A stretch of 64,000 nt of DNA from Escallonia rubra (taxonomy: Eukaryota; Streptophyta; Magnoliopsida; Escalloniales; Escalloniaceae). Of this stretch, positions 9,180-41,658 are shown one piece after another. How positions within the stretch are numbered: position 1 is the first letter of the stretch; each line of letters opens with the position of its first letter. Made by a program: the position numbers and the translations under genes. The notes below the pieces were generated by a model. The model had not been told where the DNA came from. It saw only the letters and a list, made by a program, of their open reading frames with translations, and ran no database searches. The stretch covers positions 40,221 through 104,220 of the forward strand of contig JAVXUO010000015.1 of assembly GCA_033065855.1 (NCBI GenBank). Direction: 5' to 3'.

Positions 9180-9640
9180 GATGCGCTTGAATTATTTCAA
9201 TTTAGGATTCGATTGTATTAGGGCATTCAATTTAGGGTTCAATTAGTTTAATATATGGTTCAGCTCGATTAGGGCATTCAATTCAGGGTTTAATTAAGGT
9301 TCAATTACATCAATTTAGGGTTCAATTAGGGGGTTCTATTGATTCAATTTAGGGTTCGGTTGATTTGGGGCATTCAATTTAAGGTTCAATTAGTTCAATT
9401 TAGGGTTCAATCAGTTTAAATTACGGTTCGATTCAATTAAGGCATTCAATTTAGGGTTTAATTAGGGTTCAGTTACTTCAATTTATGGTTCAATTATGGG
9501 GTTCTATTAGTTCAATTTAGGGTTCGGTTGAATTGAGACATTCAATTTAGGGTTCAATTAGGGGGTTCAATTAGTTCAATTTACGGTTCAATTGGATTAG
9601 GACATTCAATTTAAGGTTCAATTAGTTTAATTTTGAAAGA
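9180..9640. repeat. GGTTCAATTAG minisatellite in CACTA-2
   Basis: Irregular tandem copies of TTTAGGGTTCAATTAG separated by GGCATTCAAT-type spacers fill about 460 bases, some 1.5 kb upstream of the element's gene. Read on the gene's strand the word is AATTGAACCCTAAATTGAAC. That is nearly the unit of the array upstream of the MULE-2 transposase (48597-51000). Confidence 0.85.
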
Positions 9641-15176: not shown

Positions 15177-17160
15177 GGGCCCCGATCAGGGTCTACCAGT
15201 GGATAATATCCACCGGACCGCAACTCCTATGTGCGGTTTGCATGATTGATTTTTTTTTACACCCACCCACCATGCGGTCCCCCTTCCTGCCTGCCACGTG
15301 GTAGCCGGCGCCCTCCAGTCCCCCTTCCTGCCTGTCACGTGGCAGGGGGTCCCCCACTCCCCCTTCCTGACTGCCACGTGGCCCCCCTGCCCAACCCGCA
15401 ACACAAAGTGTTGCGGTCCCCCCCAAATCCGCAACACCTTGTTGCGGTCCCCCCCCCATTTTGCGGCCCCCCTGCCACGTGCCCGGTTCCCCGTCCTTTT
15501 TCCGACCTTTCTCTGCTTTCTTTCGTCTCTCTCCCTCATTTTTTTCTCTTTATAAACCCTTCTCCCCGAACCCTTTCTTTCAGTCCCCATCATCTTTACC
15601 AACACACACTTCATACTCCATATCTCACTTACAAAAAAATTTACGCTAGAAGATCGGTGAATTTTTCTTGAGCAATATATCACGTTAAAACAAGTAAGTA
15701 TTTTGAATTTTCTTATAATTCAATGTTAATTTCAAATTGTTCTTACCAATGATTTGTTTAAATTGTGTTTAGCTTAAATTGTTCTTACCATAGTCTAAAA
15801 TTCGTGTATTTTGAGAGTTTGAAATTAGGGATTGAACTAGCGTTTATTAGCGAATATTCATTCGAAGTAAAAAAATAGTCATTTTTTAGGGCGTCAAAAT
15901 TTGGATTTTTCACGAATTTATAAAAAATAGCTAGAGCTAGATTTTGCCAAAGTACAAAAAAGAGACCCTAGCTAATTTCAAAAGATGTATATCAGGAAAA
16001 ACTTTCAAATTTTTCCCTGGACTGGAAAGGGCTCAACTGATACGGGAAACCTTGTAACTTCGCAGTGTAATTTAAAATATCAAACTAGCGCGATTTTGCT
16101 CGAAAATTTTATGAGAACCCTAGGATGTTGGGAAGTTCGGTTTCCCCGGAATTTGCCCCATTCCGATGTTGTTAGCTATTTTTTTGGCCGAACAGGCTTT
16201 TAAGCGCTCGATCCGGACACCGGTTCGGAAATTTTTGGCGAAACTTTTTAGATCAAGAATGAATTCATGAAGCTTAAAATAGCATTTCAAAGCACTTTTG
16301 AGATTTTCCGATGCCAGGGGGCATTTCGGTAATTTGCCACCCCGAGAGGGGTATTTTGCTAATTCTACACTGTTAAGTTTACAACGACTATAATTTCTAG
16401 AAAGTTAAGTCAAACACCTGAAAGTTTCGCGAAAATATAGCATGACAAAGTTGCACGACAATATAGCATGATATTGAACCCCCGGGGGCGTTTCGGTAAT
16501 TTGCCGCCCATCGGGGGCATTTCGGTAATTTTCCTGTCAAAATTTTCCGAAGGGCCTTTAGTTCGGGAATGGGTGTAAGACACCTGAAAAGTTATTTTAA
16601 AGTTGTTCTGAGATGTTTCCATAGGCTGGAAAGGGGTCAACTGATACGGGGAACCTTGTAACTTTGCAATGTAATTTAAAATATCAAGCTAGCGCGATTT
16701 TGCGCGAAACTTTTATGAGAACCCTAGGATGTTGGGAAGTTCCGTTTCCTCAGAACTTGTGCCATTCAGATGTCGTTAGCTAATTTTTTGGCCGAACGGG
16801 GTTTTAAGCGCTCGATCCATACACCGGTTCGGAATTTTTGGGCGAAAAATCCCAAAAAATACTTTTTAGATCAAGAATGAATTCAGGAAGCTTAAAATAG
16901 CATTTCAAAGAACTTTTGAGATTTTCCGATGCCAGGGGGCATTTCGGTTATTTGCCACCCCGATAGGGGTGTTTTGGTAATTCTACAATGTTAAGTTTTC
17001 CAAATGACTTTTTTGTCCAGAAACCTAAGTAAAACACCTGAAAGGCTGTTTTGAAGCTGATTTGGGGTTCGGAGTGGGTGATAATGAACCCCCGGGGGCA
17101 TTTCGGTTATTTGCCTCTCATCAGGGGTATTTTGGTAATTTTCCTGTCAAAAGTTTCCAC
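15177..17160. repeat. MULE-1 left terminal inverted repeat
   Basis: The outer part (15177-15700) is C-rich and has several CCACGTGG-type E-box palindromes within GCCACGTGG words, the paired words ATCCGCAACACC/TTGTTGCGG, a TATA box and a splice donor. The inner part consists of two roughly 600-base direct repeats: the segment beginning ACTGGAAAGGGCTCAACTG at 16020 recurs as GCTGGAAAGGGGTCAACTG at 16623. Its features reappear inverted in the right end. Confidence 0.9.
15551..15556 (+). promoter_or_regulatory. TATA box in the left inverted repeat (transposase promoter)
   Basis: TATAAA follows a TTTTTCTCTT tract. About 140 bases downstream is the donor GTAAGT at 15694, and the matching acceptor TTTTTTAG ends at 17240, 14 bases before the transposase ATG. 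The transposase is therefore probably transcribed from within the terminal repeat with a 1.5-kb leader intron. Confidence 0.65.
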
Positions 17161-17254
17161 ACAACTGTAGGAAATAATTTTTATACATATTTTATTTAAT
17201 TCTATGACTTGTTGAGAATGATATAATTTTTATTTTTTAGATTTCAGTATAAAT

Positions 17255-19543
17255 ATGGATGCAACTGGAGGAAATATTTTTTGTGAAGATTCTGATCCAC
17301 CTTACTTGGGTCAAGTTTATCAAACACTGGACGAAGTTGAAGCATACTATAGAGCATATTCGAAAACGATAGGTTTCGGTATTAGAATTAAGACGACTAG
17401 AAAATGGGCCAATACAGATCAAATTTGTGGAAGACTATTTGAGTGCCATAGAGGAGCCCTGCATGTACCCCCGGTTGTTCGGATCAGTGACGAAGGGCCA
17501 TCAAGACAAAGAAGACGGGACACATTTCCGGGTACCGGCTACAAGGCCCATGTGTATGCAGTACACCGGAAAAGTGAAAACCATTGGGTTGTGACGGGAG
17601 TGGAGTTGAGCCATAACCATCAGTTGATGACCCCTAGTAAGATTGGTCAAATTCATCAGCACCGAGAAATAAGCGCGGCACACAGAGAACTGATATTTAC
17701 AATGGCCGAGGCTAAAGTTCAACCTTCTAAAATGATGGGGGTTTTCTCAAGCTGGGCTGGGGGGGTTGACAAGTTGAGCTTCAACGAAGTAGACCTCCGA
17801 AATGAACTTCGTGCTCAGAGGAGAGAGTCTTCCTGTAGGAGTGATTCTCAAGCTACACTTGATATCTTCAGGCGCCTTCAGAGTGAGAATTCTGGCTTTT
17901 TCTATAGTCTCCAACTGGATGACGAGAACCGCATTACTAATATATTTTGGTCGGATGCCCGTTCTAGAGCTGCTTACCAAAATTTTGGCGATGTTGTGAC
18001 GTTTGACACCACATACCGCACAAATAAGTACTCTATGCCTTTTGCGCCGTTCACCGGGGTGAACCACCACTATCAGTCAATCTTGTTTGACTTTGCCCTG
18101 CTTAGGGATGAGACGGAGGAGTCATTTACGTGGTTATTTGAAACGTGGCTTGAAGCAATGTATCATATTCCTCCAAAGACCATCACCGACCAAGATCTGG
18201 CAATGAAAAATGCAATTGCTAAGGTCCTTCCAGATACTCACCACGGCCTGTGCACATGGCACATAAGCAACAAATATCCCGAACGGCTTCACAATGTATA
18301 TGCAAACCATCCGACATTTAAGAGTGACTTTAATACATGTGTGAAGAAATCGTTGACGGTAGACGTGTTCGAGGAGAGGTGGGCCAAGTTAATGGATGAC
18401 TGCTATTTGCACAGTCATGAATGGCTGCAAGCGTTGTATGAGATCAGGACACAGTGGATCGGTGCCTACACCAAAAAGTTTTTTACAGCCGGAATGACTA
18501 CGACCTCGAGAAGCGAAGGTATGAATTCATTCTTTGATGGGTACGTACGCTCTTCTTCAAGTATAAGAGATTTCGTACTAGAGATGCAGAAAGCCCTTGA
18601 CAGGCAATTCCACCTTGAGAGAGAAGCCGACGCGGCTACAGTTTACAGAGAAAGACAAATATTAGTTTTTTCACCTTTGGAGGCTCATGCGGCTCAAGTC
18701 TATACCAAGAAAATGTTTAGACAGTTTCAGGATGAACTACTAAAGTCGAATCAATATAGCATGACAAAGTTGCGCGAGCTATGCAACAGATATCTCAAGG
18801 TTTATGCTTTGACAAATGTGACGAATTTTGCCAATCCGTGCTCTTCGTCGGCTCCGAAGAACAGAAGACATTTTACCGTAGCAGTGTGTATGGAGACCGG
18901 GGGTGTTAGTTGCAACTGTCAACTGTTTGAGCATAAAGGTATACTCTGTCGACACGCGTTGAGGTTTTTTAGCGCCAAGAATGCTCGTGAAATCCCTCCA
19001 GAGTATATCTTGGATCGGTGGACGAAGGAAGCCAATAGAGTCCACGGTCACATTCCTTACGTGCCCAATGTTTCAGTCGATTTCGAGCAATCTGAGACGC
19101 TGCTATATAATCACCTTTGTGACATCATGCATGGTTTATCAATGGATGCAGCGTCAACATTTGATGGGTACATGTATCAAGTTGAAGCAGCCGCACGGGA
19201 TAAGGCTAAGCATGCACAATTTAGGATGGCATTACCAGAAAGCCGGGACCCTCGGACGACTCCAGCCGGTAGATTCAATCGAGCTTCACAGCCAGTCATT
19301 TACAGCACTAGCCTGCAAGGTGAGGACGACGACATTTTTGATCCAATTATTTTTCAAACAAAAGGGCGAAAACGAGCAATACGTATGAAGAATCCGATTG
19401 AAGAAGCAACGGGTCAAAAAAAATTGCGAAAGTGTGCGTTGTGTAATAAGATGACTGACCATGACAAGAGAAATCATTATAAAGTGTTAGGTATCGAACC
19501 TGGCAGTGTGGTCGAGGAGGACGATGATGAGGAAGAGTGTTAG
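17255..19543 (+). CDS. FAR1/FRS-type MULE transposase, intact
   Basis: A single 762-residue frame. Residues about 27-125 form a FAR1-type DNA-binding region (GFGIRIKTTRK, C58 and C64, HNHQL at 120-124). The MULE transposase core follows at about 245-340 with VVTFDTTYRTNKY (D251), TITDQDLAMKNA (D312/D314) and LCTWHI; E421 in SRSEGMNSFF completes the likely DDE triad. A SWIM zinc finger lies at 553-567 (CNCQLFEHKGILCRHAL). The tail has a further Cys/His cluster (CALCNKMTDHDKRNH) and ends in an acidic run. This is the FAR1/Jittery-like lineage from which the FHY3/FAR1 transcription factors were domesticated. The enzyme would cut and join the element's ends in the nucleus. The start is the first ATG after a leader-intron acceptor. 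Absence of lesions suggests it may still be functional. Confidence 0.92.
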   Translation: MDATGGNIFCEDSDPPYLGQVYQTLDEVEAYYRAYSKTIGFGIRIKTTRKWANTDQICGRLFECHRGALHVPPVVRISDEGPSRQRRRDTFPGTGYKAHVYAVHRKSENHWVVTGVELSHNHQLMTPSKIGQIHQHREISAAHRELIFTMAEAKVQPSKMMGVFSSWAGGVDKLSFNEVDLRNELRAQRRESSCRSDSQATLDIFRRLQSENSGFFYSLQLDDENRITNIFWSDARSRAAYQNFGDVVTFDTTYRTNKYSMPFAPFTGVNHHYQSILFDFALLRDETEESFTWLFETWLEAMYHIPPKTITDQDLAMKNAIAKVLPDTHHGLCTWHISNKYPERLHNVYANHPTFKSDFNTCVKKSLTVDVFEERWAKLMDDCYLHSHEWLQALYEIRTQWIGAYTKKFFTAGMTTTSRSEGMNSFFDGYVRSSSSIRDFVLEMQKALDRQFHLEREADAATVYRERQILVFSPLEAHAAQVYTKKMFRQFQDELLKSNQYSMTKLRELCNRYLKVYALTNVTNFANPCSSSAPKNRRHFTVAVCMETGGVSCNCQLFEHKGILCRHALRFFSAKNAREIPPEYILDRWTKEANRVHGHIPYVPNVSVDFEQSETLLYNHLCDIMHGLSMDAASTFDGYMYQVEAAARDKAKHAQFRMALPESRDPRTTPAGRFNRASQPVIYSTSLQGEDDDIFDPIIFQTKGRKRAIRMKNPIEEATGQKKLRKCALCNKMTDHDKRNHYKVLGIEPGSVVEEDDDEEEC

Positions 19544-19639
19544 GATTAATGTTTCAGTTGTATAAATTGAACTTTTATAATGTTTATATTTGTGATTTGG
19601 TTTGTGAAATCTTTAATTTGTGATTTGGTTTGTGGATCA

Positions 19640-20765
19640 TTGATATTTTTGGAAGGGCCTATTCGGGCACAATTTAGGGCCCAATGTTTAGCTTGCGCAA
19701 AAAGTTGTAATTTTTTTGTCAATTTTTTTTCGCTCATTGCACCTCATGCACGCTAGTTAGCCCATTTCTATGAATTTCGGCGAAAAACGAGACAAATTAT
19801 TTTTTGGATTTTCCTACGACGCCCCTATTCGCGCACACTTTAGGGCCCAATTCTAGCTTGCGAAAAAAGTTATAATTTTTTTTGTCACTTTTTTTTTCGC
19901 TCATTGCACCTCAGGCACGCTAGTTAGCCCATTTCTATGAATTTCGGCAAAAAACGAGACAAATTATTTTTTGGATTTTCCTACGATGCCCCTATTTGCG
20001 CACACTTTAGGGCCCAATTCTTAGCTTGTGAAAAAAGTTGTAATTTTTTTGTCACTTTTTTTTCGCTCATTGCACCTCAAGCAAGCTAGTTAGCCCATTT
20101 CTATGAATTTCGGCAAAAAACGAGACAAATTATTTTTTGGGTTTTCCTACGACGCCCCTATTTGCGCACACTTTAGGGCCCAATTCTTAGCTTGCGAAAA
20201 ATGTTGTAATTTTTTTGTCAGTTTTTTCCCGCTCAAAGCACCTCATGCACGCTACTTAGCCCATTTCTATGAATTTCAGCAAAAAACGAGACAAATTATT
20301 TTTTGGGTTTTCCTACGACGCCCTTATTCGCGCACACTTTAGGGCCCAATTCTTAGCTTGCGAAAAATGTTGTAATTTTTTTTTGTCAATTTTTTCCCGC
20401 TCAAAGCACCTCATGCACGCTACTTAGCCCATTTCTATGAATTTCGGCGAAAAACGAGACAAATTATTTTTTGGGTTTTCCTACGAAGGGCCTTTTCGGG
20501 CACACTTTAGCGCCCAATGCTTAGCTTGCGAAAAATGTTGTAATTTTTTTGTCAGTTTTTTCCCGCTCAAAGCACCTCATGCACGCTACTTAGCCCATTT
20601 CTATGAATTTCGGCAAAAAACGAGACACGTAATTTTTTCGAATGCGTCATATGAAAGGTATATTCGCGCACATTTTAGCGCCAAATTCATAGCATGCGAA
20701 AAATTATGTACATTTCTTTTTTGTGCAGTTTTTTGTAACATCATTGCACCTTAGCCACGCTAGTC
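19640..20765. repeat. 167-bp tandem array between the two MULE-1 genes
   Basis: The marker word CATTGCACCTCA/CAAAGCACCTCA recurs at 19735, 19902, 20068, 20234, 20402, 20568 and (diverged) 20742, giving a 166-168-bp period with a last step of 174. Each unit contains ATGAATTTCGGCAAAAAACG, TTTTCCTACGA and TTTAGGGCCCAAT. The array lies exactly between the convergent 3' ends of the transposase and the protease gene and runs into the latter's stop codon at 20760. Confidence 0.95.
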
Positions 20766-23484
20766 AGGATAATGGTAATGAAGGCGTCTAGCTTCATTCT
20801 TTTTCAGCTCCCAGGCTATCCTATACCTAAACGTCAAGGCATCCTTCCTAGTCCACGATGAGTGTTTGAGCACTTCCGAGCAAGCATTGTAGTCCATGTA
20901 CTTGAGGACATAAATCCCGCAATCGTGACCGTTATATTGCTTTGGTCGGTCCTTTATCATCACGACCGTCCAAGGCTCCCCAGGTGGCCGTTCGCACTAT
21001 AGCGAGAGGACAGTAGTCTCCATCCAACAATAAAAACGAGAATCAAGCCTACGTAACACGAAGAATATACTATGAGCCAAGGTCGAAAAATAAAAACTAA
21101 CCACTAAAGTGATGTACTCGCTGTACATCTGTGCCAGCAGCTGTCCAGGATCGTCCTCCCTTAGGCTATCGTATATGTGAACCGTTCTGTTCGCTGGATG
21201 GAGAACTAATATGAACAAGTGGTTTGCATGATGACAAGGTATCATGATAAGGTTCGCATCAGTATCGTGACATTGATAGTTTGCGTTCATCATGCCTAAC
21301 ACGTTTCCACCTGGTTAATTCCACAAAATGAGTGGGATACATGTTAAGCTTCAAATATTCAGAACGGTTAAAATGTTGCTCTCTAATCCGGAGCAGATCT
21401 ATGTAAGCGTTCATGACAAAATTTGAAATATCTGTCTCCGGTGCCAACATTCTGATATCCTCATGACCTAGGAATGTCGCAAGAGGAAAGTATGTTGAAT
21501 CGACAGACTCATGCCCGAAGTAGTGCCGGTCGATCCAACCCATCTTGTCCGGCCTCAATGGCTTCGTCGCTTGTCCTTTGTCCGACCGGATGCTTGGGCG
21601 CGAGGCCTGGATTCCTACTTGGGGAACCTGACTCTAGCGCTGAGAGTCGTACGCGTCAGGAGGCAAGCGAGTATACGGCTCCCAGAATTCATAGCTCTGC
21701 GGCGAAGACGTGTCAGAAGGCAAGCGACTAGACGGCTCCCCCAGGCCCTGACTCTGGGGCTGAGAGTTGTACGCGTCAGGCGCTGAGCGACTAGACGGCT
21801 CCCCTGGGTAACCCCGGTACGCAACACTGAAGTTGTGAAGATCAGTCTTGTACCTCTCAATGGACCTCTTGAGACTGACGGGAGCCTGCGCGACAAACCA
21901 GTCAAACGACTCCAGCTGCTTGAACACCTCAGTGCCCTGGTCAACCTAAAAAACATGCATAAACAAAATCACCGTCATCATTTCAAGCATTGTCGATAAG
22001 GTACGTAAATAAATATTGAAACAACACGAGGGTGACTTACAATGTTCAATGCCCAGAACTAGTCATAGAAATCACGTGGCGCATACGATGTCTTCGTCGG
22101 CTGGGAAGGGCGATTCACCCTCGTGCGCGTCACCTTGAGAAACCATTGCAGGTACTCCTCAAGACTGGTGCCGTCGTGCTTGAGCGATACAAGGCTACCA
22201 TACGTTTCTTGCCAAGTATTCCACTGTTCCACCTCGTCGCTCAATAAATTCAAGGCATCAGGCACCTCGAATTTCGGCCATCGAACACTCATGTATGGCC
22301 GCATGTCTACAGGGGGTTTTGGTATCCCTTGTAGACAGCCAGCTTGCTTCATGGCTCGATCGGGCATGTGAAACTCACATACTTCGAAGTGAATAAGCGA
22401 CACCTGAACCAAACCTGCCAGCACGTACGATACCGGAAGTATCCAACAATACTCATCTAACCGATGCATCACCTTGTCGTATGGCTGCCACGTCACCTGG
22501 GGTGCATCCAGCATATCTAGTTCCCCCCGATAGAACTGTAGATGGTGGTGAGGGTTTACCCGTCTCTTCCGGTTGGTCTCCGGCCCCCAGGCCCACACCC
22601 TAGGCCACTCTGCATCGGAATATTCCCGCGGTTGTGGACGTCCCGTGGGTAGCCTCTCGTAAGACCAAACCTGTGAATGCAAACATTATATGGAATTAGT
22701 AAATAATCACGAATACTTTGACACGTCAAAACAAGAATATAAATGCTCATACCTGTAATAGAGTCAGGCAGGCGGCAATAGACTTGGCATCCAATCTCGT
22801 AGCCTTATGCAGTGCTCGATATAGGTGCGCAAGAACAGCTGAACCCCACGAATACGAGTATACCTCCTCAAGATCCTCCAAGAACACCATATACTTTGGA
22901 TGCATGGTGTTTTTCGAATGCGTCGGAAGTAATATGGCTCCAATAATATACAGAAGGAATGCCTTCGTATACGTCACGAAATCATGAGGAGTGTATTCAT
23001 CCGGTAGCACGCCGTACTGTTCTCTCAGCCATTTAAGTTTTATGCCATTAGACGTAAGAGCTTCCCTCGGGATTCCCGGGAAATACTGCCTAGCCATCTT
23101 CGATATGGATGCAGACGTTTTGCTCCAAGTAATGGGTTTGCCGTGACATGGGATTCCAAGTATAATTCCGACGTCCTCTAATGTAATAGTCATTTCACCA
23201 AACAGGAAGTAAAATGAGTTCGTCTCGCCCCTCCATCGTTCAACTAGAGCGGATATAAGGCAATCGTCATGCCGAGACAAAATCCCGGGATCGGTGAACA
23301 TGGTCAAATTTTGACGGTGTAATAGTTGTATTTGTTCCTCGTTCAGTACCCACTCTTCGAGGTGAGTTGTGCTTTGAATTGTTTCCAAAACACCCCTATC
23401 GACACCGTCAAATACGTACCTCGCGACGTGGTCATCGTCATCGTATAGGATTGATGTATCATGAGGTCCGGGGTTGAAATCCAT
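20760..23484 (-). pseudogene. Plant mobile domain (PMD) fused to Ulp1-type C48 protease, lightly damaged
   Basis: Exons read leftwards are 23484-22753, 22670-22041, 21945-21303, 21302-21102 and 20996-20760; introns have GT-AG borders. Exons 1-2 encode a plant mobile domain (TLEDVGIILGIPCHGKPI; EYTPHDFVTYTKAFLLYIIGAI; later SVRWPKFEVPDALNLLSDEVEQWN, split here only for listing). Exon 3 holds a Ser/Pro/Gln-rich linker. Exons 4-5 give the Ulp1/C48 fold with His in HHANHLFILVLH, Asp in VHIYDSL and Cys in QYNGHDCGIYVLKYMDY, so the triad is present. Damage: TAG at 22059-22061, TAG at 21634-21636 and one extra base near 21303. PMD proteins occur in MULEs and as domesticated MAIN-type host genes; Ulp1-like genes are known MULE cargo. 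The role in transposition is unknown. Confidence 0.82.
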
Positions 23485-24934
23485 ATCTCTAAGAACAAAA
23501 TATAATCGTAAACCAACTTAACGTCCATAATATTTACATTAGAAAAATATAACCGGATCTTAAACCTAACTTACCAACGCGTTAGCAATAGTCATTATCT
23601 CAGTATTTCAATGTATTAAAACAATTCCTCACTTCCCACCACTCCGAACGCTTAATTACTCTATTTCCCTAAAATTTAGAGCCAACGTGGCAATTTAACA
23701 ATATACCCCCCGATGGCCGCTACACCACCAACACTACAAAATCGCTTTAAAACCACTTTTTAAATGTATTACGTCAATTATATACCAAATATTTTCTCAG
23801 GGTATTTTAAGGGGGAAAGTTACCAAAACACCCCCAACTTATGCAAAATACCCCCTGACAGCCATCGCCCCAACAAACATCTCAGAACGGGTGGAAAAAA
23901 TAACTTTCCGGGTGTCTTATACCCCTTCCGAAACTAAAAGTAAGTCGGCAAATTTTACAATATTAAATTACCAAAATACCCCCGCTGAGCGACAAATTAC
24001 CGAGATGCCCCCGGGGCATCATTATCACCATAACTCCTCGCAATCAGCTTCAGAACAACATTTCAGGTGTTTTACTTACATTTATGGACTAAGAAGTCCT
24101 TTGAAAAACTTTACCGGGAAAATTACCAAAACACCCCTCTCGGGGTGGCAAATTACCAAAATGCCCCCTGGCTTCAAAAAATCTCAAAAGTGCTTGAAAA
24201 TGCTATTTTAGGCTTCCTGAATTCATTCATGATCTAAAAAGTATTTTTCGGGATTTTTTGCCCAAAAATCCCGAGCCGGTGTCCGGATCGAGCGATTAAA
24301 AGCCCGTTCGGCCAAAAAAATAGCTAACGGCTTTGGAAGGGCCCGAATTCCTGGGAAATGGAACTTCCCAACATCCTAGGGTTCTCATAAAAGTTTCGCA
24401 CGAAATCGCGCTAGCTTGATATTTTAAATTACACTACAAAGTTACAAGGTTCCGCGTATCAGTTAACCCCTTTCCAGTCTTTGGAAAAATCTGAACATTT
24501 TCCCTGATACAGATCTTTTAAAAATAACTAGGGTCTCTTTTTTACACTTTGGCAAAATCTAGCTCTAGCTATGTTTTATAAATTTGTGAAAAATTGTCTA
24601 ATTAAGTTTTCACCTTTAGCGACAATTACGCCCCGCAATCAGCTTCAAAACAACATTTCAGGTGTTTTACTTACATTTCTGGACTAAAAAGTCATTTGAA
24701 AAACTGTACCGGAAAAATTACCAAAACACCCCTCTCGGGGTGGCAAATTACCAAAATACCCTGGCTTCAGAAAATCTCAAAAGTGCTTTAAAATGCTATT
24801 TTATGCTTCCTGAAATCATTCTTGATCTAAAAAGTATTTTACAAAAGTTTCGCCTAAAAATCCCGAACCGGTGTCCAGATCGAGCGTTTAAAAGCCCTTT
24901 CGGCGAAAAAAATAGCTAACGGCTTCGAAAGGAC

Positions 24935-25860
24935 TCGTGGGGGCCACGAAGAAAAAAGTGGAAGGCCGCAGAGAACCGCAACTCCTTGCCATTGGGGGTG
25001 GGGGGCCATGCACGAGAAAGAAGGATATGCAAAAGAAAACAAGAAACGAAAAAAGAACACGCAAAAAAAAACAAGAAAACAAAAAGGGAACCGGGGTGGC
25101 GGCCACGAAGAAAAAAGCAAGGACAGAGAACCGCAACCCCTTGTTGCGGTTCGGTGGTGGGGGAGGAAGGGGGTGGGGGCCACAAATAAAAAAGTAGTCT
25201 CAGAGAACTGCAAGTTGCGGTTCGGGGTGGGGGTGGGGGCCCACGGGAACCGGGGGTGGGGGGGTGGGGGCCACGGCACAGAGAACCACAACCCCTTGTT
25301 GCGGTTCGGGGGTGGGGGAGGAAGGGGTGGGGGCCCACGGGAACCGGGGTGGGGGGTGAGGGGTGGGGGCCACGGTACAGTGAACCGCAACCCCTTGTTG
25401 CGGTTCGGGAGTGGGGGAGGAAGGGGGTGGGGGCCCACGGGGGTGGGGTGAGGGGTTGGGGCCCACGGGAAACGGGGTGGGGGGTGAGGGGTGGGGGCCA
25501 TGGTACAGTGAACATCAACCCCTTGTTGCGGTTCGTGGGAGAGGAAGGGGGTGGGGGCCACGGTACAGTCAACCGCAACAAGGTTTTGGGGGAGAGGAAG
25601 AGGGTGGGGGCCACGGTACAGTGAACCGCAACCCCTTGTTGCGGTTCGGGGGAGAGGAAGGGGGTGGGGGCCCACGGGGGTGGGGGAGGAAGGGGGTGGG
25701 GGGTTGGGGATGGGGGCCACGAAGAAAAGGCAACTACTTGTTGCGGTTCGGGCTGGGGGGTGGGGGGCCCACGGGAATTACGGGGTGGGGGGTAGGGGCC
25801 ACGTAAGAAAGAGAAAAGAAAAAAAGGCAGGGGGTGGGGGGCCACGAAAAAAAAAATGAA
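24935..25860. repeat. G-rich hairpin array unique to the right inverted repeat
   Basis: Units of about 70-130 bases contain a perfect 9-bp hairpin, GAACCGCAA-CCCCTTG-TTGCGGTTC (for example 25128-25152), followed by GGGGGTGGGGGAGGAAGG-type runs and GGGGGCCACGG. About seven hairpin copies lie between 25128 and 25750. Runs of four or more guanines recur every few bases, so the plus strand has strong G-quadruplex potential. All long open frames here come from the repeat. Confidence 0.9.
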
Positions 25861-26767
25861 GCGCAACACCATTTTAGACTTAACATTGTTGAATTAACAT
25901 TGCAAAATCTTAACAGTGTAGAATTAGCAAAATACCCCTCTCGGGGTGGCAAATTACCGAAATGCCCCCTGGCATCGGAAAATCTCAAAAGTGTTTTGAA
26001 ATTTTATTTTAAACTTCCTGAATTCATTCTTGATCTAAAAAGTATTTTACAAAAGTTTCGCCCAAAAATCTGGAACCGATGTCCGAATCGAGCGCTTAAA
26101 AGCCCGTTCGGCCAAAAAAATAGCTAACGACATCGGAATGGCGCAAATTCCGGGGAAACAGAACTTCCCAACATCCTAGGATTCTCGTAAAAGTTTCGCA
26201 TGAAATCGCGCTAGTTTGATATTTTAAATTACACTACGAAGTTACAAGGTTCCCCGTATCAGTTGACCCCTTTCCAGTCCAGGGAAAAATCTGAAATTGT
26301 TTCCTGATATACATCTTTTAAAAATAACTAGGGTCTCTTTTTTGTACTTTGGCAAAATCTAGCTCTAGCTATTTCTTATAAATTCGTGAAAAATCCAAAT
26401 TTTGACGCCCTAAAAAAATGACTATTTTTTTACTTCGAATGAATATTCGCTAATAAACGCTAGTTCAATCCCTAATTTCAAACTCTCAAAAAACACGAAC
26501 TTTAGACTATGATAAGAACAATTTAAGCTAAACACAATTTAAACAAATCATTGGTAAGAACAATTTGAAATTAACATTGAATTATAAGAAAATTCAAAAT
26601 ACTTACTTGTTTTAACTTGATATATTGCTCAAGAAAAATCCACCGATCTTCTAGCGTAAATTTTTTTCGTTTGTACTGTTGTGGAGATTATGTAAGTGAG
26701 ATATAGAGTATGAAGTGTGTGTTGGTAAAGATGATGGGGAGTGGAAGAAATGGTTCGGGGAGAAGGG

Positions 26768-26773
26768 TTTATA
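26768..26773 (-). promoter_or_regulatory. TATA box in the right inverted repeat (PMD-protease promoter)
   Basis: This is the mirror image of the left TATA box (TATAAACCC on the minus strand). Its splice donor GTAAGT lies at 26606-26601. The first acceptor in frame, TTCTTAG ending at 23489, is five bases before the ATG at 23484. Exon 1 of the accessory gene is thus inferred to start inside the right terminal repeat, with a 3.1-kb leader intron. Confidence 0.6.
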
Positions 26774-27144
26774 AAGAGGAAAAAATGAGGGAGAGAGATG
26801 AAAGAAAGCAGAGAAACGTCGGAAAAAGGACGGGGAACCGGGCACGTGGCAGGGGGGCCGCAAAATGGGGGGGGGGCGCAAAATGGTGTTGCGGATTTCG
26901 GGGGGGGACCGGAGGGGGTGCCACGTGGCAGGCAGGGAAGGGGGGACTGGGGACCCTGCGACGTGGCAGGCAGGGAAGGGGGACTGAGGGACCGCCGGCT
27001 GCCACGTGGCAGGCAGGAAGGGGGACCGCATGCCGGATGGTTGGGGGGTGGGTGGGTGGGTGTAAAAAAAATCAATCATGCAAACAGCACCCCCGAGATG
27101 CGGTCCGGTGGATAATATCCACCGGTAGACCCTGATCGGCTCCC

Positions 27145-30850: not shown

Positions 30851-32596
30851 TTACAAAAGATCTTGGGTGAGCTGAAAAACAAAACTAAATAGCAAGAGTG
30901 TGTCAATCCAGTCTTGATGGACATTAATTCTGGCTTGGCACGCAAAAGTAGCGAGGAGCTTAGCCTCCTTGAGATGTGCTTTACTACCCTTGTACATACT
31001 GAAATAATGAAAGTTAGTGATCATATAGCAAAAGTCATAAAACATGGCTGCCATTGAATCCAAAACGTCTTCAGAATCCGAGATCTGAGAGAGTAAAAAT
31101 GAGGAGTCAGTATATACGTTGACGTGAAGAAAATCATTTGAAAGGGCCCATTTTGATGTGAGTAACAGGCCTTTCAAAATAGCAGAATAATAATCCGATG
31201 CTAGAGTAGAAAATGCAGCAGAACCACAACGCTCATGCATAGCAGTCATACAAGAAATACCCACACCAGCTCTAAGTTTATCTTTGTTGAAGGAAATGGC
31301 AAAGAAAATGTTAACAGAGGTATGAATATTGAAATGACAAAGTGGATTTTGTGGTTGAATTACTATAGGGAAAGAAGAGAACTTAGTCAAAAGCGGAGTT
31401 TTAGAACATGTGAGGCGATGGGGTTTTTTGAAGGTAAAGATCATTTGACCCATATGAATAATTTGACTGATAGAGTTATCAGGTTGCAATCTAGAGTTAC
31501 GGAATACTTGCTTATTTCGGTTTAACCAAATGAACCAAATAGTAGAAGAAATGAAGGCATTATAGAACAGGTGTTGTTTGGCGGGAGAAGTTTTGGTAAG
31601 CCAAGCGATTAGCCAGATTTTAAAAGAGGACTGATATAGATCTGTCTTAACGCCTAGAGGGCCACCAAACCAAAGAGGCCGAACACAAGGGCAACGAAAA
31701 AATAAGTGATCTACAGATTCTTCCTGAGAGTTACACATAGGGCAAAGCGGTGTATCGATAATTCGAAGGTTATGAAGTTTTGCACGGGTTGGGAGACGGT
31801 TCCAAAGAATTTGCCAGATGAGAAAAATAATTTTGAGAGGGATAGGAAGAGACCATAAGGTTTTCCATATAGTAGGGGCGATAGAAGTTAGAGATGAACT
31901 TATTCCACGGGCCATTCTTTCATCCCTGCTGCTGGAGTATAAGATATTATAGGCTGAGTTAACAGTAAAGAAACCTGATTGAGAGAAGAGCCATAATTTT
32001 TTTTTTTTTTTAGGGTGTTCCGAAATGTAAATAGCAAGAATGTGGTTGGCTATATCTTCCGGAAAAAGATCCCGCACCAAGGAGGCATTCCAAGAGTTAT
32101 GGATAATAAGGTCATTAACCAACAAAGGCGGATTAGGCCGAGGAAATTGACAACTTGTCAATTGGTCGAGGGTCACTATCAGCCCTGGAATCCACAAATC
32201 TGACCAAATGGATATTTTAGATCCCGTACCTACATGCCATCGGAGACCTCGACTTAAAACTTTGCGGCCTGCAAGGATGCTTCGCCAACCCCAAGAAAAA
32301 TTACCCGTGGCTGAGCATTCTTCAAAAGAATGTCGAACACAATATTTACCCATTAGCACTTTGGTGAGTAGGCATGCTGGATTCGTCAAGATTTTCCAGC
32401 TCGATTTTGCTAATAAAGCCAGATTAAAGAGGTGTGTGTCCTTGAAGCCCAGGCCGCCCCTGTCTTTTGGAGCACAGAGGGAGTGCCAATTGATCCAGTG
32501 CATACCTTTCCGATTATCGTCCCCTGACCACCAGAAATTGGAAATAATAGCATCAATCTGTTTACACACGTTCTTAGGAAAAAGATATACCTGCAT
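30851..32596 (-). pseudogene. LINE ORF2, 3' portion (post-RT, zf-RVT, RNase H-like)
   Basis: The 581-residue open frame starts right at the LTR insertion point with VYLFPKNVCKQIDAIISNFW, the usual sequence following the RT domain. It continues through WHVGTGSKISIWSDLW, the zinc-finger-in-RT segment (WKTLWSLPIPLKIIFLIWQ, then CPMCNSQEESVDHLFFRCP) and an RNase-H-like tail with VYTDSSFLLSQI. It has no internal stop. The RNase H acidic residues are incomplete: the Asp of YTDSS is visible, the Glu of the usual AELxA helix is not. It is separated from the endonuclease/RT part by the solo LTR, so it cannot be translated as part of ORF2. Confidence 0.9.
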
Positions 32597-35500
32597 TGTA
32601 ACATCCCAAAAATCTGAAGCTGAATATACGGTGAAAATCCCAAACTAATCATCTATCGGACCTTTAGCGACAAAATGGTGAACATTAGACATTTTGATTC
32701 TTAGAATTTTAGTAACCTTAAGTTGTATTTAACAATAGTAGTTATAAGGAATATTGATTAACGTCTTTAGTGATGATTAACATGATCGAACTTTTTATTT
32801 TATTTTTTTTGTGGATAACGTTTAGCGACGAATTTAAATTTTTAACAATGATATAATTTTTAATGACAACATAATTTATTATTTAACGTCGGCGTGTATT
32901 TTAGCGAAAATTATTCTTTTTTTAACATTGATATATCTCTTTAAGCGAAAATTAAACTTCTTTTAATATCGGCGCTTTTGTTAACGACGATTTGTCAAAC
33001 GAGATAGCGCAAAAGACCCGTTAATAAGTTTTCATAGTGCATTTACTATTTGTAGATAATTATTTTGGACCTTTTCACGATAATAAAAGTTTCGGGTGAA
33101 AACTTGAGCGACTAATAGAAGTATAGGGTGTTTCTTGTGATTTTTCCAACTAGGGTTTTTAGGTAGAAATATGCATAGTCCGTGGGCAGCCGTCCAAGGC
33201 CTCCCTTCAATTCGGCAGACGCACCTTGAATGAGAGAACCTTGAATGAGAGAAAGAGAGATACTGAGAGAGACAGAAAGAGGGCTTGATCGAAGAGATCG
33301 TTCCGGCGGGTTTTCCGGTAAGTTGTTTCCTCTTTCTCTCAATTTTTTTCAGTGCTTCAGGGGATTAAGGGGCTGGGCGCGCAGCCGTGTGTACGTGGGT
33401 GAGGGAGCCGTGAAACTACAGAGTAATGGAAAAGTCTTAAAATTTATACATGTGATGGTTATTTATATATATACACAGATATAGACGTAAGTGGCTGAGA
33501 TGCGTAAATGGGTCTCGATATTTTTGTGAAGATCTGTGAATGGGGTGACCCTGGATGAGGATACCGTGAGATATGTGGGTTGTGTATTCGTGGAGGTGGG
33601 TTTTAGAGAGAGAAGACAGCCACGACAGGGCTGTGGGCATGCGAGCTAGAGAGAGCTGTGTGCGTGTGTTTTTGAGTGTGTGTACAAGTGTGTGTGTGAG
33701 TGTGGTTGAGAACTGTCGTGAAGGCAATCAGAGTGAGGGTTGCTGTGGGCAGCCTGTGTGTGGATTTTATGTGTAGTGTGTGCCGTGAGAGGGGCTGCCA
33801 TGGCTGTGTTTGTGCTGTGCGTGAAGGGGAAGCCATGGTAGCTACCACAAGAGTGTGTGCATTGTGGGTTGATGTATGCGAGTGTATGGGTAAGGGAGAG
33901 AGAACACGGCAGTGAGGCAGTGCGTTTGTGTGCATGTATATGTTTACATGTAGTGTGTATACATGTGTGAAGGAAGTGAGTGTATGGGTAAACTGTTTGG
34001 GTGTGTAAGTGGCAATGGATTAGCTGAGTGAGTGGTTTCTCTTTTGTTAACCTGTGTGAGTGGAGGATGAAATGGGTTTTAGTGTAGAAAGAATGGAGAG
34101 CAGCTGGGCATGAAGTGTTTGGTGTATATGTATGTTCACATATTGGTGAGGTGTATCTACATATAAATTTCTTGGAGGTTGATGGGTAAGGTGGAGGTTG
34201 GAAATTAAATGGAAGAAATGGGTGAAGCAGTGAGTGGAAGTGAGATTGGGTGTTTGTATTTTCACCTGTGTGCATGTATGTGTGTGTGAGCATCTGTGAG
34301 GCACATGTGTGCAGATGTATGGTTATATTATATGCGGGGTGAGATTCATGAGTTGTGAGGATATGTAAGTGAAGTAGAGGCTAAGTGCAGTGAATAATAT
34401 AGCGTGGTGCAGAGCGAGTATCGGGTTAGTTTTAAGTGCATCGCGAGCATTGGATAGTCTACAGTTATCCTTAGCACATGAAAATTATAGCACCTTAGTT
34501 TATAATAGAATTTCTGGTGAAGTTTTATATTTTTCTGACAATGTATGCATTTCTTAATATTTTTCGGAAGTTCATAATTATAAAATCCTTTTGGAGCCTT
34601 TAAACCAAGAAAATGTTCAGGGAAAAATTATAGTAATGTCCCTGTGGTATAAATAAAACTCAGTAAAATTTTGATAATTTTTAGAGTTGATTTATTATCA
34701 TTTTCGCATCACATGGAATTTAGCAAAACGAAAATTAAAGAAATAGTTTTAGCACCTTTTAAATCCTGATTTTTATTTCTATGATTTTTATACATATATT
34801 AAGGTTTGTACAAAAATTTTGAGTCTTTATTTCCAGCTAGAAGCAATTATGACAATTTATAGGTCTTTAGTGTATTTAAAGATATTATTTAAAAATAAAA
34901 TAAAAAAAAATATTCAAAAAAAAATTTATTTTTATTCCATATGATGTATTAAGTTGTAAATGAGCGATTAAGAACATTTTTGGGTAATTCTTAGCCTCGA
35001 GCAGGGTAATGAATTTCAGAATAGGTTGGCCGTGTGTGAGACCCGTTTCGAATTTTGCCGTTCCGGGTAGGGAAATAGATACGATGTGGATCACTATATT
35101 AGGTTTATAATATATTAGTTTGGATAGTGTTCTGATAAGTGATTTGTCAACATAGGTTAATTTCGAGAATTTGATCGAGAACGTTTTAGTTTCAGCTCAT
35201 TTGGATCGAGGTAAGGGATTTCTATCCGAAACCCAGTTTCATCTATTTGTGCTCATAAATATTTTTCTGTATTGTTAATGAAATTTTTTTGGACTCCGTT
35301 ATAGTTGAAATGTGAATTGTTTGCCCTAAAATCCTGTTTTGAGCTTATCACGTTATTGACATCTCATTCGATGCTCAGTATTTATTTCTCCTTGAGTGTC
35401 GATTTATTCATTGTAATATCGCTTATTGCATTCTGCATATTGGCATGAGATAGTGTATTGAGGAGTTATAAGGATGGTCTGTATCGGGGGTGATATAAGG

Positions 35501-36121
35501 ATGGTCTGTTATTGTCGGGAGATGCTAGTACCTTGAGGGTCTAGCTAGTGTTCATATGCATATGTAACTTTATCGTTATTAAGCACTGCCTGTGCGGCTT
35601 TGCTAAGTGTTACCCTGCACTGCCTGTGTGGCTTTGCAATTTACTCATGTCCAATATCATCTGCATTGCTTCAGTGAAATCGAAAGTGCATTTATTGAAT
35701 CTTGAATTGCGAAATTGAAAATATTGTTTCTATGTTGTCATTGACATAACCTTCTGACCAAATCATTTGTAATCTTACTGAATTTTGAGCGACCTTACTG
35801 AGCTCTCGAAAGCTCACTCCCTTTTCTGTTCCTTTCTGCAGGAAATAACCGTCAGTAAGATTTTGGGACGGACGAGCGTAAATCTTAGAGTAGATTATGT
35901 TTTTAGAATATTGTTATTTGGGCCTTGTTAGAGAACCATCATGTAATTTGATAATTTAAGTACTTTATTATTGTTTTGAGACGGTTTGTTAAGTTAGTTG
36001 ATGGACTGTAGTGCTCCGATATGAATGTTGTTGGGTTATCTTTAGTAGTACTGAATTGATTGGACAATTGAGGATTCGATGGAATGATCGGATAATGCTC
36101 CTGAAATTTCGGGGCGTTACA
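32597..36121. mobile_element. Solo LTR (3.5 kb) inserted in the LINE
   Basis: It begins TGTAACATCCC and ends GGGGCGTTACA, with TG...CA termini. It is flanked by the 5-bp duplication TGCAT at 32592-32596 and 36122-36126. No internal domain, primer site or second terminal copy is present, so it is an LTR left after recombination of a full element. The size would suit large-LTR Ty3/Gypsy families, but the lineage cannot be told without coding sequence. A TG-rich stretch at 33650-34320 produces many meaningless open frames on both strands. Its family matches the LTR piece at 1-1015. Confidence 0.92.
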
Positions 36122-38574
36122 TGCATGTGGTAAGTAAGAAGAGCCGAGAGTGTCGATGAAATGAGAGTTGCACGCCCCGCTTTGTTAAGAAGTATATTCT
36201 TCCATCCAGCGCATTTTTTCCTTATTCTTTCAATAAGGTGACTAAAAAATTGATTCCGGTGCGTCACGATATCCAGCGTACCACCCAAATAATTGCCAAA
36301 AGAGTCCGAAATTTTGAGACCTAATAATCGGGAGACTTGCTGGTATAGAATAAGAGGCGATGAAGGACTTAAGGTGATGGCTAATTTTGTGTGATTGATC
36401 AATTGTCCGGAAGCTCCGCAATAAATGTCTAACACCTTTTTAATGGCTACACAAGACAAAGGATTTAGCTCTGAAAAAATTAAGGTGTCATCAGCAAAGA
36501 AAAGATGATTAATGGGAGGGCTACGAGGTCCAGCTTTTATGCCTTTGACTGATCCAAGTGTTTTTGCCAAGGTCAACGCTGCAGATAGGGCTTCTGCACA
36601 TAGAATGAAGAGGTATGAAGATAACGGATCTCCCTGTCGTAGCCAACAGGAAGGTTTGAAAACTGCAGAAGGCGAGCCATTCACTAGAATTTGATAAGAG
36701 ACCGATGATACACACTTCATAATCAGGTTTATCAAATGACTTGGGAAATGCATTCTAGTGAGAAGGGCTCTCAGAAAATCCCAGTTAAGTCGGTCATAGG
36801 CTTTGCTCATATCCATCTTAATGACGCCAAGGTGATTAATGCCTGTACGGTACTTGCGAATCTTGTTGGTCAGTTCTTGGGCAATGAAAAGATTATCACT
36901 TATGTGGCGTCCTTGGACAAAGGCATTCTGTTCTTCAGAAACGAGAGAGTTAAGAATAGGTTTGATCCTATTTGCTAATGTTTTTGCGATCACTTTATAA
37001 ATGGTGTTGCAAAGGGAAATAGGTCTGAAGTCATCTGCACTTGAAGGTGAGGGTACTTTGGGTATGAGCACAATAAAGGAATTATTTACCTCTGAAAGCA
37101 AATGACCCGATGGCAAGAAGGAGAGAACTTCCGCTATAATTTGTCTATCCATAAAATGCCAACAATGCTGGTATACCACTGCTGGAATACCATCAGGACC
37201 AGGGGCTTTGAGAGGATGAAGTTGGAATAAAGCTTGTTTTACTTCGGAAGCAGTAAAAGGTCTGTCAATCCACTCTGTTTGACGGGGAAGTAGTCTTTTG
37301 GTTATAGAGACCAAACTCTGTGAAATCAGGGACTGATGCTCTTCCGTTTGTCTTGTGCTAAAAATAGCTTGAAAATGCTCAACCAAACAGTGGGAAATAT
37401 CACCATGAGATTCTAAGAGCCTACCCGAGGCATTAAGTAGAGAAGAAATGGAATTTGATTGCCTCCGAATAAGAGTTGATGCGTGAAAAAACTTCGTGTT
37501 TCTATCTCCGGACTGAAGCCATTGAATCCTTGATTTCTGAGCCCAGTGAATTTCTTCACATTCAAGGAGCCAAGAGAGATGACGTCTAGCATTCTGATCT
37601 AAAATCTGAGCATCTGGGTTTGGCAGTTAAGATTGAAAGTGGGCTATTTGAGCCTGGGTCTGTTGGATTTGAACGTTGAGATTTCCAAAACGCTCTTTGT
37701 TCCATAACCTCATAATTTGGATCATGATTTTTCCCCATGCCATGACTTTAAACAAAGGAGAGCCAGAGACAAAGGTAGACCAGGCAATTTTAATGATTTG
37801 AAGCCCTTGCGGGTGCTTCAGCCACATAGCTTCAAAACACTTCGGCCTCGGTAAAAAGTGAAGATCAGGTCTTAGAACAAGAAGGATAGGGGCATGATCT
37901 GAAGATTGAATGCCAAGGTTATAAATTTGGGCATTGGGGAATGTTAGGATCCAGTCCGGGGTGGCAAAGCCACGATCAAGCCGCTCATAAGTACATGCAG
38001 TCTCAGATCGGTTGTTAGTCCAGGTAAATGGGGGTCCCACCCATTTTAGATCAGTAAGATGATTATTTTCCAAGAAATCTGCCAACCAGATGTGACCCGG
38101 TATGCAAAGATAATTTGGCCCACATTTATCAGCTGAGGTAAGAACTTGATTGAAGTCTCCAATTATCATCAAAGGTAAGGAGATGGATTCGAGAGCTCCC
38201 GAAAGACGAAGCCAAGTTGCCCGTCTTTTAGAGAGATTAGGTTGACCATAGATAAAGCCCGCTACCCAAGGCGAGAGGTTGGGGCCCTTAAATTCCACTA
38301 GAATAAGGTATTTATCCACAAAAATTACAGATCCGGAAAAGTTTGCTTTCCACCCAACCCATAAACCACCTTTAGTACCAAGGACTCCCGACGGTTCGGT
38401 TCCGCTGTACGAAGTAAACCCCATTTTGTGGAACATGGGGAAAACAAGATTTGGAGGTAGTTTTGTTTCTTGAAGGAAAATACAATCAGGTTGGTGGGTA
38501 CTGACCAAATTACGGGCTGCTCGAACTGTGAGGGGATGGCCTAACCCTCGGCAGTTCCAGCTAAGAATTTTCAT
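36122..38574 (-). pseudogene. LINE ORF2, 5' portion (AP endonuclease and reverse transcriptase)
   Basis: Starting at the ATG 38574, the endonuclease shows MKILSWNCRGLGHPLTVRAA, FLQETKL, IGDFNQVL and QSSDHAPILL, the standard catalytic motifs of LINE apurinic endonucleases. A single in-frame TAA at 37627-37629 follows HFQS. The frame then reopens, with QWLQSGDRNTKFFHA and the RT domain (PLKAPGPDGIPAVVYQ; DFRPISLCNTIYKVIAKTLA; DMSKAYDRLNW; LRQGDPLSSYLFI; HLFFADDTLIF). It stops where the solo LTR enters after LLTYHM. The FADD catalytic box is intact. Two lesions, the TAA and the LTR, inactivate it. Confidence 0.93.
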
Positions 38575-41500: not shown

Positions 41501-41658
41501 TGAGAAGACACGATTGTCAATAAAGCTGCCAAGTAGGATTTTTCCGTACCTTCACGTGCATTTCGGACAATTTGTTCATTTAGCGGAATCATATACGTCC
41601 GCATATTCAGGTTGCTTTCTTCATAAATGTTACCATCATATGGAGAGTACTCTTCCAT
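38571..41658 (-). pseudogene. LINE ORF1 (DUF4283-like / CCHC zinc knuckle)
   Basis: A 967-codon open stretch from 41471 to 38571 holds the second half of a DUF4283-type domain (DLWMRVSEEPSDCFHYYLAE) and a CCHC zinc knuckle CFRCGCIGHNNTQC, then a long acidic and Ser/Pro-rich tail. A likely true start is the ATG at 41658 (MEEYSPYDGNIYEES). That frame does not join the long one: the middle of DUF4283 appears lost or shifted near 41470. ORF1 proteins of plant L1 elements bind RNA and act as chaperones in the transposition particle. The ORF1 stop TGA (38573-38571) overlaps the ORF2 ATG by sharing ATGA. Confidence 0.8.

Follow-up and report, generated by a model that had tools for sequence, protein, structure and literature searches.

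A large FAR1/Jittery-type Mutator-like transposon family of Escallonia rubra with a convergent PMD-C48 gene, a possible VANC-like anti-silencing partner

Among plant Mutator-like elements (MULEs), those of the Jittery-like or FAR1 type have one open reading frame (ORF) and terminal inverted repeats (TIRs) of 39–292 bp or none (group 36 in PMC6446971). The table of the same source notes the plant mobile domain (PMD) for MuDR-, VANDAL- and Solanaceae-type groups but not for the FAR1/Jittery group (PMC6446971). AutoMuTAnT of Medicago truncatula, an element of 4.9 kb with one gene, encodes an 833-aa Jittery-like transposase and inserts into TA microsatellites (PMC4486113). Some Jittery-like families of grapevine have a ULP sequence downstream of the transposase, and in MULEs at large ULP is found in either orientation (PMC2528002). 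Where MULEs bear a PMD, it is often antisense to the transposase (PMC5418596; groups 42 and 45–50 in PMC6446971), and PMD-transposase fusions occur in grasses and Amborella (PMC5418596). Maize MuDR has two convergent genes with promoters in TIRs of ~215 bp, the function of mudrB being unknown (PMC3440606). The VANDALs, which belong to a MULE group other than Jittery and whose TIRs are absent or short and degenerate (PMC6446971), are the source of the VANC proteins, in which DUF1985 is joined to tandem peptide repeats and which bind noncoding tandem repeats and remove methylation (PMC5735166, PMC10398659); in KIU, one of the VANCs, a Ulp1 domain is present as well (PMC13317346). Here we describe a ~12-kb MULE in a 64,000-nt stretch of Escallonia rubra DNA (hereafter the window). 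It is one copy of a large FAR1/Jittery-type family in which the transposase gene adjoins the left end, a convergent four-exon PMD-C48 gene adjoins the right end, and a ~167-bp tandem array lies between them.

The two genes and their pairing in the genome

The transposase frame of the window copy is uninterrupted over its 762 residues, as had been claimed in an earlier note on this DNA, and matches FAR1 (PF03101, E = 2.6e-12, residues 31–125), MULE (PF10551, E = 9.7e-30) and SWIM (PF04434, E = 9.8e-6, residues 551–573) domains. Transposases of this type gave rise to FAR1/FHY3, which serve plants in their responses to light. The motifs DTTY, TDQD, CTWH and SRSEGM, which start at residues 251, 311, 333 and 418, presumably hold the DDE and C/H positions. 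The transposase sequence gave no PDB match at an E-value of 0.1, and an AlphaFold2 model of the protein alone was set aside at a mean pLDDT of 34.4. Used as a query against the genome, the transposase scored at 59 places including the window, the other 58 at 87–98% identity, and 34 of the 59 contain no stop.

From these 59 places we fetched the 20 best, each with up to 6.7 kb of downstream sequence. PMD and C48 lie tail to tail with the transposase in 18 of the 20 (window included), at the same place and in the same orientation, which bears out the earlier proposal that the three parts form one lineage. Over all 59 transposase places, at least 35 have a PMD within 10 kb, convergent in all 35, and six further copies (L026–L031, picked because a PMD was listed nearby) hold both genes. 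The genome contains at least 247 places matching the first PMD exon, a count that takes in the window and may take in haplotype duplicates; given this number and the 58 other transposase places, the element is far beyond chance. When MULE-domain places were taken instead, at least 26 of 150 had a PMD within 10 kb among the matches listed, 23 convergent and 3 divergent; the 124 without a PMD among the matches listed are little informative.

The earlier note had regarded copies lacking one of the genes at the same borders as a sign that the protease gene came from a separate insertion. One copy, L012, has neither PMD nor C48. Its sequence skips from the match of window position 20250 to the match of position 23921, and beyond this junction parts of it are 96.6–98.5% identical to L016 and L017 (87.5–88.2% in the G-rich stretch). 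In its transposase L012 stands closest to L018 (1.4% difference), and L016, L017 and L018 all hold PMD-C48. Because of the sequence jump and the gene in these close relatives, L012 evidently lost PMD-C48 by a later deletion inside the element. The other departing copy, L020, is rearranged, with C48 kept and a transposase piece in place of the PMD. Acquisition of PMD-C48 through a separate insertion was rejected in view of the pairing in 18 of 20 copies and of the deletion structure of L012. As side observations on the family, in the rearranged copy L020, taken with L024 (G000:C1582), the array and C48 are succeeded by a second left half that is inverted and contains a transposase piece, and L050 (G000:C2359:89900-94300) is a ~4-kb derivative whose two ends flank only a ~680-bp inverted transposase piece and which looks like a non-autonomous member.

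The model of the PMD-C48 gene was built from an alignment of 18, then 24, copies (window included). It has four coding exons, whose splice sites are kept save in L017 (acceptor lost), L030 (exon 3 donor lost, frame open at 850 aa) and L009 (junction missing, frame open but shortened to 616 aa). The frame is open from start to stop, at 850–880 aa, in seven of the 24 copies; that of L028 is open with a slightly different C-terminus. In one spliced copy Pfam matched PMD (6.1e-69), Peptidase_C48 (PF02902, 4.1e-21), DUF7745 (8.8e-8) and DUF1985 (4.8e-6). An alignment of the C48 domain with SENP2 (1.7e-10) pairs the HW, DS and Q-C motifs of the two proteins, which we take to be the catalytic residues. 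The tandem peptide repeats of exon 3 vary in number among copies.

In the window copy, the PMD is matched across two exons (3.7e-43 and 6.9e-20), and the gene is broken. Besides the TAG in exon 2 (Table 1), exon 3 contains a TAG at 21636–21634 and, near 21309 and ahead of the C48 histidine region, a frameshifting net deletion of 56 bp; the C48 part is divided between two frames. Because of the two in-frame stops and the deletion, the PMD-C48 gene of the window copy is dead, and this copy is intact for its transposase only. The earlier note was therefore right that a convergent PMD-C48 gene is present but overlooked the damage to it, and its view of this copy as complete and autonomous is not supported. 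The same insertion is carried by contig C1839, where ~250 bp of flanking sequence look identical and identity is 98.1% over 7980 columns, and which on these grounds is evidently either the other haplotype or a duplicated segment. The C1839 copy has the exon-2 stop of PMD-C48 in common with the window but not that of exon 3; it carries separate damage, and 19 substitutions over 2952 sites distinguish the two. The transposases of L013 and L015, and likewise of L016 and L017, differ by 0.09%; these pairs were not taken as recent jumps, since C1839 indicates that the assembly can hold one insertion on two contigs.

Constraint, exchange and possible roles of PMD-C48

The ratio of nonsynonymous to synonymous substitution rates (dN/dS) of the PMD (exons 1 and 2) was 0.41–0.50 in eight comparisons between subfamilies, with bootstrap upper bounds of 0.62–0.75. 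For the transposase the same eight pairs, which are mutually dependent, gave 0.44–0.68, with one interval (L004–L030) extending to 1.16. Purifying selection acts on the PMD half between subfamilies about as strictly as on the transposase. Constraint on the protease half is less certain and not clear (see below). In addition, three copies (L011, L013 and L015, the latter two possibly one insertion seen twice) combine a transposase of subfamily A (distance 0.022–0.026) with a PMD gene of subfamily B (0.010–0.022). From these mixed copies it follows that recombination between subfamilies swapped the two halves while the pair was retained, and the intergenic tandem array is probably the crossing point.

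The explanation that we favour, at roughly even confidence, is that this FAR1/Jittery-type MULE family carries an accessory gene akin in kind to VANC, PMD-C48 being an anti-silencing factor. It is suggested by parallels with VANC and KIU of the VANDALs, namely the sub-cut-off DUF1985 match, the peptide repeats, the C48/Ulp1 domain and the 167-bp array. In such a scheme, the two near-identical ends would serve as twin promoters, from which transposase and partner would be made together. The FAR1-type transposase would bind the end palindrome or the CACGTG repeats and would move the element by cut and paste, with TA repeats as the target. The partner protein, PMD-C48, would recognise family-specific noncoding repeats in the manner of VANC and KIU, and its deSUMOylase-like domain would counter silencing. 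Transposase may still be made from the window copy, for which other copies would have to supply the partner protein.

Several observations weigh against this explanation. First, stops or frameshifts disrupt 15 of the 24 PMD-C48 copies, that of the window included, in addition to the shortened L009 and to L030 with its lost donor. Second, the dN/dS of the C48 part is 0.65–0.77, and the bootstrap interval reaches 1 in all three comparisons. Third, the only within-subfamily pair, the window copy and L016, gave a PMD dN/dS of 1.06 with an interval of 0.43–5.78, which reflects too few changes. Fourth, the DUF1985 match is under the Pfam cut-off (27.0 versus 35.1 bits for the spliced copy, and 33.9 bits on the window exon), so that common descent with VANC is conjectural. 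Finally, the FAR1/Jittery placement of the transposase was made by domains. The damaged copies and the unclear constraint on the C48 half would also fit a passenger, that is, a host or transposon gene that was transduplicated and is copied along without serving the element. The existence of L012 without the gene fits this too, as does the presence of ULP sequences in several grapevine families, of both MULE and CACTA type, that are unrelated to one another (PMC2528002). We nevertheless rate a passenger as unlikely: the PMD dN/dS between subfamilies stays below 1 up to its highest bound (0.75), the splice sites are kept with few exceptions, the pair is retained even in the mosaic copies L011, L013 and L015, and a second PMD-C48 family, ~50% identical in PMD exon 1, stands with a convergent MULE transposase frame at two places.

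The layout of the element bears on a different role, that of a transposition co-factor which, like maize mudrB, would aid reinsertion or would process or stabilise the transposase. The family shares with MuDR an arrangement of two convergent genes whose promoters (predicted ones here) lie in the ends (PMC3440606), and mudrB is apparently needed for integration (PMC6446971). The Arabidopsis PMD proteins studied, by contrast, act in silencing and gene expression (PMC5418596, PMC8616336), and we give the co-factor role a low probability. The same proteins raise the further idea of a decoy, since the PMD proteins MAIN and MAIL1 act with PP7L to silence transposons, and a counter-silencing role has been proposed for PMDs that transposons encode (PMC5418596, PMC8616336). 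PMD-C48 would then compete through its PMD with the host MAIN/MAIL1-PP7L complex without binding element DNA. The two host-like PMD genes compared match the element PMD in short stretches only, at 26–43% identity, and a decoy seems to us quite improbable.

If PMD-C48 is a VANC-like anti-silencing factor, a broader and more tentative proposal may be made by analogy: a FAR1/Jittery MULE lineage might have gained a VANDAL-type accessory protein for sequence-specific anti-silencing, composed of a PMD/DUF1985-like part and a SUMO protease. Such a module would cross distant transposase types and swap between subfamilies while paired, as an exchangeable counter-defence cassette whose protease acts on the silencing machinery. 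Transposon-encoded anti-silencing in plants is known mainly from the Arabidopsis VANDALs. A second transposase type with a constrained partner of like design, in high copy, would therefore make the function of the PMD/DUF1985-Ulp1 module testable independently, and the natural swap copies, in which transposase and partner belong to different subfamilies, could help to map specificity.

The earlier note had also suggested that this lineage may help to explain where the domesticated FAR1/FHY3 and MAIN-type genes came from. That suggestion is unsupported because the subfamilies examined are little diverged (dS of at most 0.17) and the host-like PMD genes are only distantly similar, two of them matching the element's first PMD exon in short stretches at 36–43% identity. 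The opposite direction was argued by Ikeda et al. 2017, according to whom MULEs took PMD-C from host genes (PMC5418596). Four host-like PMD genes are clustered at G000:C922:1278226-1296817, each with a full-length PMD in one open frame (643–689 aa); two of them are L051 and L052.

Ends, target sites and other repeats

The borders at 15177 and 27144, read directly from the sequence, the exact 9-bp duplication and the inverted ends were all found as the earlier note had placed them (Table 1). The left and inverted right ends are 86.7% identical over 1298 columns (blastn). Internal repeats of ~550 bp extend the left end inward to ~17158, and repeats of the right end extend further inward to ~23875. 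The near-palindrome next to the tip recurs with small changes in ends recovered from other copies, and together with the CACGTG boxes it is a candidate binding site. The intergenic array was present at all 27 loci examined, with 2.2–9.7 copies of a 166–169-bp unit.

Table 1 Features of the element in the window
Feature	Position	Strand	Basis or remark
Left target-site duplication, TACAAAGAA	15168-15176	.	Exact 9-bp match to right copy
Left TIR, ~1.24 kb	15177-16414	+	blastn of the two ends
Near-palindrome ACC(A/G)GTGGATAATATCCACCGGA, directly inside left tip	15195-15217	.	Mirrored at ~27104-27126
Subterminal ~39-bp repeats with CACGTG	15278-15382	.	Mirrored at 26902-27028
TATAAA, predicted left-end promoter	15551-15556	+	Invariant in 9/9 aligned ends
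Predicted leader splice donor GTAAGT, left end	15694-15699	+	Acceptor CAG ends at 17247
FAR1-type MULE transposase, 762 aa, unbroken frame	17255-19543	+	ORF and Pfam domains
Intergenic tandem array, 166-bp unit, 5.9 copies	19658-20638	.	Tandem-repeat analysis
PMD-C48 coding exon 4, C48 Gln/Cys region	20760-21017	-	Copy alignment
PMD-C48 coding exon 3, tandem peptide repeats then C48 His/Asp region	21102-21945	-	Copy alignment
PMD-C48 coding exon 2, second PMD half	22041-22670	-	Pfam; in-frame TAG at 22061-22059 in window copy
PMD-C48 coding exon 1, first PMD half	22753-23484	-	Pfam, copy alignment
G-rich minisatellite array within right arm	25229-25689	.	Tandem-repeat analysis
Right TIR, ~1.27 kb	25874-27144	-	blastn of the two ends
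Predicted leader splice donor GTAAGT, right end	26601-26606	-	TATAAA 26773-26768; acceptor AG 23490-23489, adjoining PMD ATG
Right target-site duplication, TACAAAGAA	27145-27153	.	Exact 9-bp match to left copy

Promoters in the kilobase-long ends, another element of the earlier note, are represented by sequence signals only: the TATA box and the splice donor are both invariant in nine of nine aligned ends from seven contigs (C1839 being the window's own site). ATTTCAG stands directly 5' of the transposase ATG at all 26 loci shown. Upstream of the PMD ATG, TAG is followed by A(G/A)AT in 19 of 24 copies, and in the other five (L008, L026, L028, L030 and L031) the AG comes two bases later. These end signals and acceptors are compatible with twin promoters in the ends, as in maize MuDR. 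The age of the insertion was not derived from the divergence of the two ends, as had been suggested, because the ends of a DNA transposon are not copied from one template at insertion and such dating is invalid.

We sampled 40 ends, not all independent (two may belong to one element, or one site may lie on two contigs), by a fixed pattern of the family tips, GGGNNCCGATCAGGG. A perfect 10-nt TA run adjoins 29 of the 40, seven more are TA-rich and four are neither; of these four, two belong to the window copy, one is their counterpart on C1839, and the last is from elsewhere. Positions following such a run number one in 63,988 in the window and 515 in 255,301 in the fetched loci, which themselves include such flanks. 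Since 29 of 40 ends abut a perfect run, the family targets TA microsatellites, the window copy being an exception with a clear duplication. Another exception, C988, has the target-site duplication TACTTTTAA and was one of ten other elements looked at. Most of the remaining nine have TA-repeat flanks, in which a duplication is unreadable, and the right end of C1041 was not found. Targeting of TA microsatellites by a two-gene FAR1-type element would be a possible safe-haven strategy in the same package.

Other PMD-bearing repeats are present in this genome. The second PMD-C48 family is represented by L053 (G000:C85:76000-85990) and L056 (C1870), and dozens of near-identically scoring PMD places among the matches listed belong to the L053 class. 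On C84 and C85, a 783-aa open frame with a MULE domain is convergent with, and 6.2–6.5 kb from, a second-family PMD-C48 gene; this transposase, absent from the FAR1 matches listed, may or may not be of FAR1 type. On C2883, a PMD match of the second-family class and a MULE match point away from each other. L054 (C2557) and L055 (C240) have MuDR-type transposases (DBD_Tnp_Mut, just under the cut-off in L055) with a PMD downstream in the same orientation, and represent another PMD-bearing MULE family. Elsewhere in the window lie remains of a LINE-type retrotransposon (30851–41516, minus strand), which include frames for reverse transcriptase and zf-RVT as well as a zinc knuckle that scores below threshold, and remains of another MULE transposase (52064–53586, plus strand). 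The latter consist of two overlapping frames, of which the first matches MULE and Transposase_mut and the second matched no family. A minisatellite of TAATTGAACCC-like units occupies 50460–50944, and a GGTTCAATTTA-like repeat at 9190–9625 is apparently the reverse complement of its unit.

Comparison with described systems

The domain order of the transposase, with an N-terminal FAR1 domain, the MULE domain and a C-terminal SWIM finger, is that of the group 36 Jittery/FAR1-type MULEs, from which the family differs in its second, convergent gene (18 of 20 copies) and its ends of ~1.24 kb (PMC6446971). With AutoMuTAnT and MuTAnT it shares the Jittery-like transposase and insertion into TA microsatellites; unlike AutoMuTAnT, it is ~12 kb long and has two genes, and its tips are GGGNNCCGATCAGGG as against the MuTAnT search mask GGGGTTTGCTAGAACA (PMC4486113). 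The grapevine Jittery-like MULEs resemble it in a ULP-type gene beside the transposase and in size (Jitvine-1 is 11.9 kb). In the main text of that source the term 'mobile domain' occurs zero times and ULP is regarded as transduplicated (PMC2528002); those grapevine genes may or may not include an unrecognised PMD. As in the PMD-bearing MULEs described, the PMD lies inside the element and, as often there, antisense to the transposase, which here, unlike there, is of FAR1/Jittery type. Two convergent genes and predicted promoters in the ends recall maize MuDR, whereas the ends are ~1.24 kb against ~215 bp (PMC3440606).

The resemblance to VANC and KIU of the VANDALs lies in a MULE whose accessory gene bears a Ulp1-type domain and peptide repeats, accompanied by noncoding tandem repeats (PMC5735166, PMC10398659, PMC13317346). 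It differs from VANC in that the best Pfam match is PMD, with DUF1985 below the cut-off, and anti-silencing is proposed here by analogy only. In contrast to the stand-alone MAIN/MAIL host genes, PMD-C48 is part of a repeat element with defined borders and is found repeatedly next to the transposase. No report of FAR1/Jittery, PMD and C48/Ulp1 in combination was among the matches listed, in literature searched mostly without subscription papers. ULP-carrying MULEs of melon were reportedly described by van Leeuwen in 2007. MULEs of FAR1 type have been described before, and so have MULEs with a PMD, Jittery-like MULEs with a ULP and a Jittery-like MULE that targets TA (PMC6446971, PMC5418596, PMC2528002, PMC4486113); the combination of these features in the Escallonia rubra family appears to be new.

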